NCBI GenBank assembly: GCA_034189135.1
Contig: JAXHVO010000051.1
Location: forward strand, 19,558-67,657
Length of the DNA: 48,100 bases
Source of the DNA: Thermodesulfobacteriota bacterium
GTDB lineage: Bacteria; Desulfobacterota; Desulfobacteria; Desulfobacterales; JAUWMJ01
Reading direction: 5' to 3'
The position numbers and the translations under genes were made by a program. Positions 40,076 to 47,962 of the stretch are shown here, one piece after another. Position 1 is the first letter of the stretch; the number at the start of each line of letters is the position of its first letter. The notes under the pieces were generated by a model that was given only the letters and a program-made list of their open reading frames with translations, was not told the origin of the DNA and did not search any database.

Positions 40076-41428
40076 TTATCCGGCGGGAAGGGCTTCACGC
40101 CCAATATCGACGATAATCTGTTCATTCAGAAGCTCTTCAAATTGCACATGCACACTGCTTTCATCAAAAGGCTGAAGGTGAACGGCCACGATCTTACCGT
40201 TGCAGTTGATTTTGTGCTTGCCTGACTGGTTTTGGTAAATAGTTTGAATGTTTATCCAGGAGTCTAACAACTGGCTGGCATCTTCTTTTTTATTAATCTT
40301 AAACCCATAACTGATACCACCTGCCGAAATATCAAACAGGGATACCTTATAGGGTCTCCTTAGCGGTTTTCCCAATTGGTCTAAAGGCTGAACCAGGGCA
40401 TTGCTGGAGAACTTAACCCGCTTATGCCCCCTTAACTGCAGCCCTGATTTTTGTATCAACTCGCCCACGCTTTCAAACGAGTTGGAAAAAACTCTCAGTT
40501 TATTTTCAATACCGGGTTGATTTTTCTCCCACTCGGTGAGAATATTTTTTTCCAGAAAAAACACTTCCGCATCCGTGATGGCGACCAGAGAAGTGGTACA
40601 TACGGTAAAGGAGAAAAACGCTCCGTCATTTGCCAGGTTACCGGGTGTTAACTCTTTCAAAACCGCTTCCTGCAGTCCGAAGCGATCGTAGTATACCATT
40701 TGAAGTCGGCCACTTTTGATAAAATAGATGTTTGAATCGATCTGACCCTGTTCAAAAACAGGCTGACCCGCTTTAATTGCTTTCCTTTTCATGGCAAAAT
40801 AGAGGGCATTGGCTTCGTCCTTGGTAAGGGTTTCAAAAAGTTTGGCATATGTTTGAATAAAGTTTTCATCCATGGCCTTGCTTTTTTCTTCTTCAATGAT
40901 TTCGCCTGAACGGACAATTTCATTTAACGCCATGGGGGCAACTTCATACAGCTTTTCTCTGAGTTTTTCCGCCCGTGTAAAATCGTTTTCCTTAGAGGAT
41001 GCGGTGATCATTTCCAGCAAAACTTTTGCGGCATTTTCCTGATCTCCCTGCTCAACATAGTGGTCCACCATTTTTTCCTGGTCTGAAATATCGCTTTCCG
41101 GTGGCAATTTTTCTTTCTTTTCGGCGGAGATATCCTCTTTTTGGGCAGGTGGTTTTATTTCGGCTTTGTCTTTCTTTTGTTCTGTTGCTGAACCGGTGCT
41201 TACTGGAATAGCAGCCCCGCAATGTTTGCAAATCTGAGCGGGAGACTGGCTGAGACCACATTCCGGGCATTCTATCCACTTGCTTTGTTGCTTGCTTGCT
41301 GGAGGGGTTTCTTTTTGTACAAAAAATTTGGTCTGGCATTTTTTACATCTGGAATAAACACCCTTAGCCGGAATTCTGGCATCATCGACCCTGTATTCGG
41401 TTTTACAGTTCGGGCACTGAATGTTCAT
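40076..41428 (-). CDS. Zinc-ribbon / cyclic nucleotide-binding / PilZ multidomain protein
   Basis: A 450-residue cytoplasmic protein. Residues 1-40 are an MJ0042-type zinc finger (CPNCKTEY, CKKCQTKF). Residues about 51-72 form a second zinc ribbon (CPECGLSQ, CKHCGAAI). A charged linker and helical segment follow, then a cNMP-binding fold at about 220-315 (AGQPVFEQGQIDSNIYFIKSG). The C-terminal 110 residues are PilZ, with RGHKRVKF (RxxxR-like) and DISAGGISYGF. It may bind c-di-GMP and perhaps a cyclic nucleotide. The cNMP fold lacks a clear phosphate-binding Arg in the expected loop, so nucleotide binding is doubtful. No enzymatic output is visible. Context gives no partner. Confidence 0.82.
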   Translation of the reverse strand: MNIQCPNCKTEYRVDDARIPAKGVYSRCKKCQTKFFVQKETPPASKQQSKWIECPECGLSQSPAQICKHCGAAIPVSTGSATEQKKDKAEIKPPAQKEDISAEKKEKLPPESDISDQEKMVDHYVEQGDQENAAKVLLEMITASSKENDFTRAEKLREKLYEVAPMALNEIVRSGEIIEEEKSKAMDENFIQTYAKLFETLTKDEANALYFAMKRKAIKAGQPVFEQGQIDSNIYFIKSGRLQMVYYDRFGLQEAVLKELTPGNLANDGAFFSFTVCTTSLVAITDAEVFFLEKNILTEWEKNQPGIENKLRVFSNSFESVGELIQKSGLQLRGHKRVKFSSNALVQPLDQLGKPLRRPYKVSLFDISAGGISYGFKINKKEDASQLLDSWINIQTIYQNQSGKHKINCNGKIVAVHLQPFDESSVHVQFEELLNEQIIVDIGREALPAG

Positions 41429-41820: not shown

Positions 41821-42582
41821 ATGAATAAAGAGATCACCATTATTGCACAAAAAATGCGGGAAACCGATAAAAATGTTATTTTCACCGGTGCCGGCATATC
41901 CACTGAAAGCGGCATTCCGGATTACCGCAGTCAGGGTGGAATCTGGGAAAAATTCCGTCCGGTCTATTTTGATGAGTTCATGTCATCCAAAGAAGCTCGG
42001 ATTGAATACTGGCGTCGATGGTCGCAACTCTATGACGATTTGGCACAGGCAAAACCCAACCCCGCTCATTTGGCTGTAGCCGGACTTTATAAAATGGGAC
42101 TCCTTGAAGCGGTGATCACGCAAAATATTGACGGGTTGCACCAGCAGGCAGGCCTTCCGCACGATAAAATAATCGAACTACACGGCAGTACCCGCAGGAT
42201 AAGGTGTATGCGTTGCAGCAAAATATCCTCCATCCATGAAGCCAAAAAGCGCCTGGATGAACAAGATCTTGCGCCGGAATGCGAGTGCGGCGGTTACCTG
42301 AAGCCGGACACCATATCTTTCGGACAGGCCATGCCCGTAGATAAAGTCGAACAGGCGATAAAACGTTCTAAAAACAGCCATTTCTTTATGGTGGTGGGCT
42401 CGACCCTGGTGGTTCAGCCTGCGGCACATATGCCGGTCTATGCTAAAAACAACGGGGCGTTTGTTGCCATGATCAACCTGTCTGAGACTCCGTGTGATGG
42501 GATATGCGACGTACGAATAAATGGAAAAGCGGCAGAAGTTTTGCAAAAAATCACTAATGCAATACAGCAAAATGGTCGATAA
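41821..42582 (+). CDS. Sir2-family NAD-dependent protein deacylase
   Basis: A 253-residue sirtuin. The NAD site is VIFTGAGISTESGIPDYRS, the catalytic His follows QNIDGLH in IELHGS, and the zinc Cys are CMRC and CECGG. Sirtuins remove acyl groups from lysine using NAD, with nicotinamide released. The ATG at 41821 gives the family N-terminus after AAAGGAAACC; an upstream frame to 41734 runs through repeat DNA and is not used. The CheW-LysM gene follows after 36 bases on the same strand, possibly co-transcribed. The usual specificity residues for desuccinylase (Tyr and Arg near the NAD site) are not evident, so deacetylase activity is likelier. Confidence 0.93.
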   Translation: MNKEITIIAQKMRETDKNVIFTGAGISTESGIPDYRSQGGIWEKFRPVYFDEFMSSKEARIEYWRRWSQLYDDLAQAKPNPAHLAVAGLYKMGLLEAVITQNIDGLHQQAGLPHDKIIELHGSTRRIRCMRCSKISSIHEAKKRLDEQDLAPECECGGYLKPDTISFGQAMPVDKVEQAIKRSKNSHFFMVVGSTLVVQPAAHMPVYAKNNGAFVAMINLSETPCDGICDVRINGKAAEVLQKITNAIQQNGR

Positions 42583-42618: not shown

Positions 42619-44172
42619 ATGGACAACACGCAACACCACAACGCTTTTTTAACTTTTCGGGTAGGACCTTTTTGCTTGGCTGTTCCGGCAGTGGACGCGG
42701 AAGCGATTATTACCATGCCGGAAATCAGATCCGTGCCGCTTACCCCTGCCTCTATATCAGGCGTGTTTTCCCATCGCGGTAAAATTACAGTGGTGATCAG
42801 CCTCAAACGTAAATTCGGCCTGAAGGAATCGGACGACCGATCGGCTGGCCAGCTGATTATATCACGCCTGAATTCGGGTTTGAAGGCCTTTCGGGTGGAT
42901 GAAGTGCTGGATATTATTCCTGCTTCAGGTTTAAATTTCAGCACGTTGCCTGCATTTGGCCGGATCACCGCATTCGACAAATTTGCAGTCAAACATGACG
43001 AAATCATTTTACGCACCGATTTCGAACTTCTTTTCCGCCTGGAAGAATCAAAGGAAGTTGCCGATTCGCTGAAAAACTTAACCAAAACGCTAAAACCGGA
43101 GCCGGATTCTGATCAACCTGTGTCTGATGAAGATGTACCTATATCAGAACCCCACTCTCAAACAACCCCTGAAGAGAATAACGGCATAGAGCCCCCCCAG
43201 CATTCAGACAGCGGTGACTCTTCTCAATCTGACGGCAATCCTGCAGACACTCACCCTGAAGAGGTTTCAGCACAAAAAGCTGGGGCGGTGGATAAAAGGG
43301 CTTTATTAAAACCGAATCGCAGGCCAGTGCGAAAACCAATACCCTATAAAGCACGACCGGCTCAAAGAAAAACCCCGAATGGATACGGATTACCCCCGGA
43401 CCGCCAAGACGCCACCCAACCGCCCAAAAGAGTCCTGCGGCTGGTGGTTGCCGCTATGGTGATCCTGGGTATTATTTTCGCATCCATGATATGGCTATGG
43501 CCGATAAACGATAAGGATCTCAAGGTGGCTTATGGGCCGGTGAAACCGGCGGAAAATCACAGCCGGGATGTTTTTACCCAGCCCCCTGATTTTTCTCAAC
43601 AAGAGGTAACAGGTGATACTTCAGAGATAGTTGCGGATACCGTTGAGGTATCCGAAGATAAGAATGATGAACCAGTTAAACCAGAGGAACCTGAGGCGGT
43701 GGAACAGATACCGCTGAAAACGGCAGAAAAAACTTTCGAGACAGTTGAAAAGGATAGTGCGGATTTTACCGCGCCACCGAAAAACAAGGAAATCCTGAGA
43801 ATCGATACGGACGATTTTACCCTGACTGTTGAGCGGCCGCAGTCGTCAAAAACAGAACCGGCGGTGCCACCCGAGCAAAAGACGATTGATGAAGATTCAC
43901 CCCCATTGAAAACGGATGAACAATTCCCCCGCAAAACCCAACAAGCACCGCCGGAAAAAACAGATCAAACCAATTCAGCGCCTGCGGCAGCGGGAAATAT
44001 GGAAATTATACACATCGTGGTAAAGGGCGATACGTTGTGGGATATTTCTGCAAAATATCTGGGTGATCCTTTCCGCTATCCGGAACTGGCAAAACTGAGC
44101 CGAATCAACGATCCGGATCTGATTTACCCCGGCGATCTGATTCGTATCACCAAAAAAAAGCAGACCGTTTAG
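42619..44172 (+). CDS. CheW-like domain - transmembrane - LysM protein
   Basis: A 517-residue protein with three parts. Residues about 8-140 are a CheW-like adaptor domain (FLTFRVGPFCLAVPAVDAEA, SISGVFSHRGKITVVISL, AFRVDEVLDII), the fold that normally links receptors to CheA. A Pro/Glu/Ser-rich stretch follows, then one transmembrane helix at about 273-293 (LVVAAMVILGIIFASM). A second acidic stretch leads to a C-terminal LysM domain at about 461-510 (VVKGDTLWDISAKYLGDP, LIYPGDLIRI), which binds peptidoglycan. The domain order puts CheW inside and LysM outside the inner membrane. It may tether a signalling array to the wall. No other chemotaxis genes are in the window. Confidence 0.85.
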   Translation: MDNTQHHNAFLTFRVGPFCLAVPAVDAEAIITMPEIRSVPLTPASISGVFSHRGKITVVISLKRKFGLKESDDRSAGQLIISRLNSGLKAFRVDEVLDIIPASGLNFSTLPAFGRITAFDKFAVKHDEIILRTDFELLFRLEESKEVADSLKNLTKTLKPEPDSDQPVSDEDVPISEPHSQTTPEENNGIEPPQHSDSGDSSQSDGNPADTHPEEVSAQKAGAVDKRALLKPNRRPVRKPIPYKARPAQRKTPNGYGLPPDRQDATQPPKRVLRLVVAAMVILGIIFASMIWLWPINDKDLKVAYGPVKPAENHSRDVFTQPPDFSQQEVTGDTSEIVADTVEVSEDKNDEPVKPEEPEAVEQIPLKTAEKTFETVEKDSADFTAPPKNKEILRIDTDDFTLTVERPQSSKTEPAVPPEQKTIDEDSPPLKTDEQFPRKTQQAPPEKTDQTNSAPAAAGNMEIIHIVVKGDTLWDISAKYLGDPFRYPELAKLSRINDPDLIYPGDLIRITKKKQTV

Positions 44173-45595: not shown

Positions 45596-45960
45596 ATGAA
45601 AACGCTCATATCCAAAACTTTAGCCATCCTCAGCACTTTATATTTCACAACGATCTACGCATCTGTCGATGCAAATTCATGGCCCGGAAAAGCGGCAGGC
45701 GTTCGGGAAACGTGCCAAACAGTTTACGTCCGGGATGGTTTTTAATAAAAGCGTGAACGTGAAACCGGTCACGAAAGATCGATATGGCAGAACCGTTGCA
45801 TGGGTAAATTGTAATGGAAAAAGTCTTAATGAGAACCTGTTAAAAGATGGGCTTGCCTTGCACATCAAGAGATATTCATCCGATAAAAATCTTGCAATAA
45901 TGGAAAACAAAGCACGTCAAACAAAAGCCGGGCTTTGGATAAATCCGAAAGCTCAGCCTC
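45596..45960 (+). pseudogene. Broken secreted thermonuclease (SNase-like) gene
   Basis: An ATG at 45596 opens a signal peptide (MKTLISKTLAILSTLYFTT...) that runs into a stop at 45743. In another frame (from 45669) the C-terminal half of a staphylococcal-nuclease-type protein is clear: PEKRQAFGKRAKQF, DRYGRTVAWVN, LNENLLKDGLA and [11 protein letters not shown]. The missing middle should hold the first OB-fold strands with the DGDT calcium site and catalytic Arg, about 45 residues. So a deletion plus frame change killed the gene. Its 3' end is also lost: after KAQPP the sequence switches into the LuxR-type gene. The protein once would have cut nucleic acid outside the cytoplasm. Confidence 0.8.
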
Positions 45961-47962
45961 CTTGCAGAGTCGTGAAAATATTCCGGAATTTATAGAAACA
46001 TTTGCAGGAGATGACCGCCATATTGTGGATTATTTAACAGAGGAAATAATTAATCTTCAGCCGGAGCATGTGCAGAATTTCTTACTGCAAACAGCTATTC
46101 TCAATCGTTTATCAGGACCACTCTGTGATTCCGTTACCAGTCAAAAAGGCAGCCAGGAAATATTGGATGACCTGGAAAGAGCAAATTTATTCATTATACC
46201 ATTGGATAATAAGCGTCAATGGTATCGCTATCACCATCTTTTTGCCGATTTGCTTCGGCAGCGATTGCACCGGACACATGGTGATCGTATGCATGAACTA
46301 CACAAGCGGGCAAGTGAATGGTACGATCAGAATGCGTTTGGAGAGGAGGCCATAGAGCATGCGTTAATGGCTAAGGATTTCAAACGAGCAGCACGTTTAA
46401 TTGAAGAACTTACCGAAGCCATATGGCAGCGTGGTGAACCGGCCAGGCTGTTTCGGTGGATAGATGCTCTGCCGGATGCATATGTGATTTCGAGGCCAAA
46501 TCTTTGTATCGCGTACGCTTGGGTACTAGCAGTAAGTGGTAAACAAGCAGCCGCTGAACGGAGCTTGCAGACGGCTGAAAAGATCATTCATACTACTAAT
46601 ATGGATAAACCAATAAAGCCAAAAGGTGAATCAACGAGCCTATATTCTTTAAAGAACAGAGAGCTGCAAGGTAGAATAGCTGCGATTCGTGCGCATATGG
46701 CAACTGACCGGGGGGACGTAAAAAGTATCGTTAAGTTCTCGGAACAGGCGCTTAAACTCCTTCACAAGGAAGATTCAGCATGGCGCGCGGGTGTTGCGAT
46801 TTCATTAGGCATTGCGAACTCGCTTCAAGGAGACAGCATATCAGCCATTGAAGCGCTCTCAGAAGCGGTAGCCGCAAGCAAAGCCGCAGACAATATTAAT
46901 TTGTATCTGATAGCCAATTTTTGGTTGGTGGTTCGACTGAAATATAGTGGCCAACTACCGCGAGCAATTAAACTTTGTAAGCATTTATTGAAAGTCGTAA
47001 ACGAAGAGAAATTGTCACATACGACAATAGAAGGCGCGTTATTCGGTATTTGGGGAGAAGTTCTCTACGAATTGAACGAACTAGATGAAGCCTTACATTA
47101 TGTAAGAAAAGGTCTTATACTGTTGGAACATGGACAATATGTCGGTAGCCTTGGTTGGGCCTATTACGGCCTGCTGAAAATTTTGACTGCCAAAAATGAT
47201 CTCCCCGGCGTCGAAGAATCAATCAAGAAAATAGCGCGATTAGAGCAGGAATCTGAGGTTCCTTCTTGGGTTACTCACCCGATTGAAGCCTGGAAAGCTC
47301 GGATATGGCTAATGAATGGCAACATAGACAGAGTTTTAAAATGGGCGGAAGAACGCGAATTAAAATTGGATGACGATCTGACGCCCATGCGCGAAACTGA
47401 GCACATTATGTTTGCACGAATTCTCATCGCCCAGGGCCGACTGAATGATGCTATCGGATTGTTGGAACGTCTGAGCAAAGAGTGGGAAAAGGGCGGTAGA
47501 AGTCTAAATCAGATCGAAACACTGCTGGTTAAAGCTTTGGCCCTGCGGGCACAAAGGAAAATAACTGAAGCCTCGGTCACCCTTGGGAAAGCGCTATCAA
47601 TAGGCGAACCCGGAGGTTATATCCGCATCTTTTTAGATGAGGGCCCCCTCATAGCTGAATTGCTAGAAAAAGTGCTTGATACAAAGGTTGACGTTCCACG
47701 TGCGTATGTGAAAAAGCTGCTATCAGCATTTAGGCTAAACAAACTAATTAAAACAGATGATGGTCTGGTTGAACGGCTGAGTGAGCGTGAACTGGAGGTA
47801 CTGAGACTCATTGCTGCCGGACTATCCAACAATAAAATCACAGAAGAACTTTTCATCTCATTGAGCACCGTTAAAACCCACCTCAGGAACATCAATAGCA
47901 AACTAAACGTTCATAGCCGCACTGAAGCTATCGTTAAAGCAAAAGAGTTGGATCTATTATAG
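45935..47962 (+). pseudogene. N-terminally truncated MalT/LuxR-type regulator
   Basis: The frame (675 residues from a TTG) matches the middle and C-terminal parts of large MalT-type regulators. It begins at [15 protein letters not shown], a segment that normally follows the NB-ARC/STAND ATPase. It continues through the winged-helix-like linker ([14 protein letters not shown]) and TPR-like repeats ([17 protein letters not shown]). It ends with an intact LuxR helix-turn-helix ([35 protein letters not shown]). The P-loop, Walker B and about 280 N-terminal residues are missing. The truncation point lies at the SNase junction, with only a TTG and no ribosome site, so I call it a pseudogene. Expression as a DNA-binding fragment cannot be ruled out. 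Confidence 0.78.

Follow-up and report, generated by a model that had tools for sequence, protein, structure and literature searches.

Array placement is known in detail for a few polar flagellates. In vibrios and pseudomonads, the wall-bound landmark is HubP/FimV and the CheW-like array integrator is ParP. Members of the HubP/FimV family carry an N-terminal periplasmic LysM domain, a transmembrane (TM) segment, and a C-terminal TPR/FimV region, and binding of the FimV LysM to peptidoglycan has been shown by sacculus pull-down (PMC12918733). ParP has a ParC-binding N-terminus and a C-terminal AIF domain, and it is encoded next to parC within a che gene cluster. In T. maritima CheW, the receptor groove consists of L14, V27, I30, and V33, and a ParP mutant with alanine at L209 loses receptor binding (PMC5706961). 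M. xanthus FrzB lacks the strands that CheW uses to bind CheA-P5 (PMC6952110).

Here, we describe a protein in which a CheW fold, a single membrane span, and a LysM domain are joined in one chain. It is encoded in a 48,100-nucleotide stretch of Thermodesulfobacteriota DNA, which we refer to as the window. The gene is an intact ORF with an ATG start and no internal stops. Together with its upstream neighbor, it is laid out as follows:

41821..42582, + strand: Sir2 deacylase gene, co-directional upstream with a 36 bp gap, a possible operon partner
42619..44172, + strand: whole gene for the CheW–single TM–LysM protein, 517 aa (ORF, Pfam, hydropathy, AlphaFold2)
42643..43053, + strand: CheW-fold domain, residues 9-145, predicted cytoplasmic (Pfam PF01584, AlphaFold2, VIA-align, own tree clade)
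43054..43425, + strand: disordered cytoplasmic linker, residues 146-269, starting with a helix at 145-158 and basic before the membrane (AlphaFold2, charges)
43426..43497, + strand: transmembrane helix, residues 270-293 (hydropathy, AlphaFold2 helix)
43498..43785, + strand: disordered periplasmic linker, residues 294-389 (AlphaFold2)
43786..43839, + strand: conserved juxta-LysM hairpin motif, residues 390-407, KEILRIDTDDFTLTVERP (family conservation, AlphaFold2 strands 393-396 and 400-405)
43996..44157, + strand: LysM domain, residues 460-513, predicted to bind peptidoglycan (Pfam PF01476, near-invariant in the family, VIA-align)

Both domains exceed their Pfam cut-offs: CheW (PF01584) at residues 10-103 with 60 bits against 23.5 (E 2.5e-16), and LysM (PF01476) at residues 465-510 with 35.6 bits against 20.9 (E 8.8e-9). 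The Pfam scan finds no third domain in the protein. AlphaFold2, given an alignment of 25 rows of family members, models four parts with high confidence: the CheW fold (pLDDT for residues 11-110 lies mostly at 90-96), one helix (270-293), a small hairpin (393-405), and a LysM with the order beta-alpha-alpha-beta (strand-helix-helix-strand, 460-513). Both linkers are disordered, and pLDDT in the cytoplasmic one is mostly below 50 from residue 165 to 266. Structural comparison with VIA-align shows a complete, two-lobed N-terminal domain. Its top matches among CheW chains (9a72, 2ch4_Y, 6s1k, 8c5v, and 2qdl) align over 133-138 residues with Z 15.3-16.6, and Z to CheA-P5 structures is 13.3-14.3. 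For the C-terminal domain, Z to LysM structures is 3.5-6 (rows 7b5h, 7aeb, 7vcm, 4uz2, and 7r1l), and the type IV pilus protein TsaP is among its best sequence matches in the PDB. Likeness to cold-shock and other beta-barrel proteins in VIA-align (Z about 4) was judged to be noise from a common arrangement.

The only hydrophobic segment of the window protein is central (residues 275-293, mean hydropathy 2.73), and hydropathy reveals no N-terminal hydrophobic or signal peptide-like segment. Net charge is +9 over the 40 residues before the membrane segment and -3 over the 40 after it. Given this charge pattern and the lack of an N-terminal hydrophobic segment, we expect an N-in/C-out topology, which would place CheW on the cytoplasmic and LysM on the periplasmic side. 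The first-pass annotation, made from the letters alone, had proposed an N-terminal CheW-like domain, one transmembrane helix, and a LysM on the far side of the membrane; domain search and fold bear this out, and the predicted topology likewise puts the two ends on opposite sides.

The window protein belongs to a set of about 35 proteins that share its build and come from Desulfobacterota and Gammaproteobacteria; 28 distinct proteins were found when both domains were required in one ORF, and later loci raised the number to about 35. Because the same build recurs in so many full-length relatives, a chance fusion, frameshift, or assembly artifact is ruled out. There is a full-length copy with 63% identity in a same-genus genome, and a copy with 33-38% identity in another family of the window's order. 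A contig scan with the single window protein gave no matches, and a profile built from a three-row alignment recovered the family. According to this profile, few genomes of the window's order carry the family (no more than 8 of 389, a count that includes one genome, G180, matched over LysM alone), and the same architecture is found in many gammaproteobacterial metagenome-assembled genomes. In the gammaproteobacterial order of genome G394, about 32 of the 40 genomes were scored as carrying the gene, 5 of these positives being partial matches. A plasmid search returned only ordinary CheW or LysM matches.

The order of parts is constant across the family, with one central membrane span in each protein (weak in L075, L191, and L193). 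Linker lengths vary from 117 to 575 residues on the cytoplasmic side and from 76 to 250 on the periplasmic side. Two sequence features are diagnostic: a hairpin motif, ILRIxTDDFTLTVERP in Desulfobacterota and AxIxxDxxGITIxLxxP in most gammaproteobacteria, and a near-fixed LysM sequence, HxVVKGDTLWxIAxxYxxxPxxYPELAxLSxIxxPxxIYPGxxxxI. The window protein, with its TDDFTLTVERP-type hairpin and C-terminal LysM (HxVVKGDTLW...YPGDxIRI), belongs to the family on both counts. In a tree, all tethered CheW domains fall together in a single clade (98/98), separate from free CheW, CheA-P5, PilI, and ChpC domains drawn from the same kinds of genomes. Putative ParP controls, picked from che operons because they lay behind ParA, proved not to be CheW proteins and were left out of the comparison.

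Several loci hold variants of this build. Two proteins (L192:2817-5420, 867 aa, and L193:2702-4882, 726 aa) represent a long-linker subtype whose cytoplasmic linker is 30% acidic (D/E); the L192 linker contains 34-residue repeats reminiscent of the HubP acidic repeats. At three loci, a second TM-LysM gene follows or overlaps the CheW-LysM gene (L188:3328-4644, L190:6650-7858, and L191:7166-8188), and the gene ends mostly overlap. The second proteins have a different, short cytoplasmic domain and no CheW, and share the juxta-LysM hairpin. Thus, the TM-LysM tether appears to be a reusable module. A 443-aa single-TM protein at L194:3499-4830 lacks CheW and has a tandem pair of LysM domains, both of the same family.

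The CheW module itself is divergent. Core positions are kept across the family (G57, V102, D103, and P49 in E. coli numbering), and others are conserved in a family-specific manner (VGP at 15-17, P34, H/Y52, and W/F at the I116 position). E38, L61, and G30 are lost in 33 of 33 members, L61 being mostly replaced by H/Y and G30 by C/A, and P67 is also not kept; all four are invariant in nine free CheWs. NLRG is changed to SHRG in the window protein, and most members from gammaproteobacteria no longer have the arginine (R62). The window protein thus has neither the NLRG nor the E38 by which we would recognize an array member.

The receptor groove is similarly affected. The alignment of the window protein to T. 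maritima CheW is ungapped up to about residue 67, and the VIA-align match covers the whole CheW fold. Because the alignment to 1k0s has no gaps there, the groove residues can be assigned as L11, A24, A27, and I30, which do not make up a hydrophobic receptor groove. In 30 of 33 members, A, S, T, or C stands at the equivalent of T. maritima V27 (I33 in E. coli and L209 in ParP, the latter matched by the shared groove-residue spacing of 13, 3, 3); in the window protein, this residue is A24. Given this replacement, it is doubtful that the module contacts receptors in the standard CheW manner. The strands for CheA binding that FrzB lacks are not deleted in the window protein. The first-pass suggestion that the protein could anchor a chemosensory array therefore survives in part: the idea of a wall tether stands, while the loss of conserved coupling residues makes it doubtful that the protein sits in the array as an ordinary CheW does.

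Gene neighborhoods offer no direct link to chemotaxis. No che, mcp, or flagellar gene adjoins a family gene in the neighborhoods checked, no ParA-type or che gene is among the annotated genes adjoining the window gene, and comparison of 72 neighbors shows no repeated chemotaxis family among the 25 commonest families listed. The neighbors of the window gene do not recur beside family members in the loci compared, and Sir2 is not a conserved neighbor in the relatives examined. Downstream of the window gene, lgt lies on the opposite strand. Upstream of the Sir2/CheW-LysM pair and divergent from it, a gene of the window (40076-41428, - strand) combines a zinc ribbon, a cyclic-nucleotide-binding domain, and a weak PilZ match in one protein. 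At 45669-47962 (+ strand), a staphylococcal-nuclease-like ORF overlaps at its 3' end a MalT-like TPR-LuxR ORF, for which no N-terminal ATPase domain was reported and which is possibly a gene remnant.

In gammaproteobacteria, the gene often lies between rsmA and apaG-apaH, followed by genes for a small HExxH protein and ComFB; alternatively, it stands behind an acyltransferase gene, with mlaA. Four frames of 742, 430, 328, and 268 aa, considered as a hidden cheA-cheB-mot-parC operon, were identified by Pfam as lptD-surA-pdxA-rsmA. ComFB and the HExxH protein were rejected as conserved functional partners; as ComFB is absent from all gene-bearing Desulfobacterota genomes, the ComFB/HExxH link is lineage-specific. 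Directly behind the CheW-LysM gene, several gammaproteobacteria encode proteins of one family, ~165 aa long and marked by a conserved HEACH/HEAGH zincin-like motif (SALHEACHYICM), at L075:9592-10113 and L057:9429-9917, and likewise at L062, L058, L064, and L076; the family has no Pfam or NCBIfam match. Adjoining another CheW-LysM gene (L055:8926-10623), ankyrin repeats, a PDZ domain, and a caspase-like peptidase occur in one protein.

Chemotaxis genes are nevertheless present elsewhere in the same genomes. The window genome encodes, away from the gene, 2 CheA, 3 free CheW, 7 MCP, and FliG. The first-pass annotation was right, for the neighbors examined, that no che genes are nearby. Canonical CheA, here any CheA frame judged from the match tables not to be of the long ChpA type, was found in 48 of 50 gene-bearing genomes, the window genome among them, against 276 of 389 across the window's order. 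The two gene-bearing drafts without it are G390 and G421 (2.1-2.3 Mb), and G408 has a weak canonical match only. The proposal of a stand-alone scaffold is doubtful on this evidence, even though CheA never adjoins the gene in the neighborhoods checked.

Within the gammaproteobacterial order, 31 genomes have both the gene and CheA, 1 has only the gene, 3 have only CheA, and 5 have neither (Fisher P = 5e-4). The gene is absent in 5 of 6 genomes with only pilus-type ChpA, against 3 of 34 with canonical CheA. Substituting FliG for CheA gives similar counts (29, 3, 2, and 6; P = 5e-4). Five gene-bearing genomes with canonical CheA have no FliG in the draft (G395, G399, G409, G417, and G419), which makes CheA at least as good a companion of the gene as the flagellum. 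When kinship was controlled, the association was not significant, with 3 usable independent pairs and with two rpoB rows from gene-bearing genomes (G429 and G430) on very long branches, probably in the wrong frame. With three such pairs, the profiling against cheA suggested in the first-pass annotation yields a repeated co-occurrence and an association in the gammaproteobacterial order that is suggestive and no more. FimV occurs in most gammaproteobacteria of the set, both with and without the gene; no FimV C-terminus scored above cut-off in nine Desulfobacterota searched.

We tentatively propose, at slightly less than even confidence, that the protein is a wall-anchored tether for a CheA/CheW-type assembly, docked in an unconventional manner. 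The chain would be tethered by a single pass through the inner membrane, and its C-terminal LysM, which by analogy with FimV most likely binds the sacculus, would grip peptidoglycan via a periplasmic linker of ~170 residues. The N-terminal CheW fold, on a flexible cytoplasmic linker of ~130 residues, would serve as a docking module, probably by means other than the ordinary receptor-groove contact. In this way, the protein could secure the whole or the edge of a chemosensory assembly to the wall, one chain covering the roles of both HubP/FimV and ParP. We favor anchoring because CheA is nearly always present, the CheW fold is full, and the HubP/FimV-ParP pair combines the same functions. The distance from membrane to array baseplate is about 25 nm. 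Cytoplasmic linkers of at least 117 residues have a contour length of about 42 nm, so the baseplate would be within reach.

The eroded groove and the lack of che neighbors keep another reading serious, although we consider it to be less probable: the CheW fold might have been re-used outside chemosensing, as an SH3-like module with which a wall-anchored envelope scaffold recruits some other protein. Loss of the canonical coupling residues across the family would fit such a change of role, as would the occurrence of the TM-LysM part without CheW at three loci and the gammaproteobacterial neighbors (lptD-surA-pdxA-rsmA ... apaG ... apaH, or acyltransferase and mlaA), which are all envelope or housekeeping genes. 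However, these neighbors differ between the two phyla, the core CheW fold is intact and scores best to true CheW, and the near-constant presence of canonical CheA would go unexplained. A role in Pil-Chp, the chemosensory system of type IV pili, comparable to that of FimV in pseudomonads, is very improbable. Most gammaproteobacterial genomes do have kinase frames of ChpA size, and the TsaP match to LysM points the same way, but five genomes of the gammaproteobacterial order with a ChpA-type kinase (four of them with FimV) lack the gene, no kinase of that size was seen in the window genome (its CheA frames are 918 and 957 aa), and the CheW domain groups with neither PilI nor ChpC.

We also regard it as improbable that the protein is a sensor passing wall state (glycan occupancy or envelope tension) to a CheA kinase, a version of the wall-state report to a kinase that the first-pass annotation had entertained. 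A LysM outside and a CheW inside on one chain, in a genome that encodes CheA, would suit a sensor. Yet the linkers that separate both domains from the single helix are disordered (pLDDT mostly below 50) and span at least 117 residues inside and at least 76 outside, Pfam finds no HAMP or other signaling domain, and the receptor-groove residues are eroded. Disordered linkers and no signaling domain leave no rigid path for a conformational signal, which makes the proposal mechanically weak. As modeled, the geometry is that of a long flexible leash, suited to a tether or landmark and not to conformational signaling.

If a wall-anchored tether is the correct reading, then a wall-to-CheW link in one protein would be the shortest possible route for array positioning, and could explain array placement in bacteria that lack known landmarks. 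More broadly, the family might constitute a widespread class of wall-anchored landmark, in which one polypeptide with a remodeled CheW interface bridges peptidoglycan to a CheA/CheW array as an alternative to HubP/FimV-ParC-ParP, notably in Desulfobacterota, where the FimV search gave no match; we offer this wider proposal with somewhat less confidence. Even without an array partner, the family would represent an unrecognized use of the CheW fold in two phyla, common in one gammaproteobacterial order. Automated labels such as "chemotaxis protein CheW" or "LysM protein" may also skew counts of chemotaxis systems.

Both domains, the fold, and the concept of a LysM landmark are already known; their combination and the family are undescribed in the literature searched. 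That search returned no description of a CheW-LysM protein, and preprints, subscription papers, or domain-database entries could still hold one. Among other envelope proteins, TsaP and further LysM proteins share a related LysM domain, but have no CheW and a different architecture.

The CheW-TM-LysM family belongs to neither HubP/FimV nor ParP. Like HubP/FimV, it combines a single TM, a periplasmic LysM of the peptidoglycan-binding kind, and a long cytoplasmic part, which in HubP/FimV recruits arrays (PMC12918733, PMC8789113), and the acidic cytoplasmic repeats of HubP are matched by the L192 subtype. However, order and orientation are reversed: the window protein has an N-terminal CheW, a C-terminal LysM, no signal peptide, and no GLB domain, and Pfam and NCBIfam scans find neither a FimV nor a TPR domain. 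FimV also co-exists with the family in gammaproteobacteria. With ParP and its AIF domain, the family shares a CheW-like SH3 module, a long linker joining it to a localizing part, and the forming of a clade of its own (PMC5706961). In contrast, ParP binds ParC through an N-terminal domain and lacks any part for wall binding; its AIF lies nearer to CheA-P5, and its groove leucine L209 is replaced by A/S/T in the CheW-LysM family.

The complete two-lobed fold (Z 15-16) is that of free CheW, whereas the window protein is tethered to the membrane and, as predicted, to the wall, and has lost NLRG, E38, G30, and the I33-equivalent. A parallel for such remodeling is M. xanthus FrzB, also a divergent CheW with a changed interface and function (PMC6952110). 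The two have diverged in opposite directions: in FrzB, the CheA-binding strands are gone and the hydrophobic residues of the receptor contact remain; in the CheW-LysM family, the strands remain and the groove is eroded.
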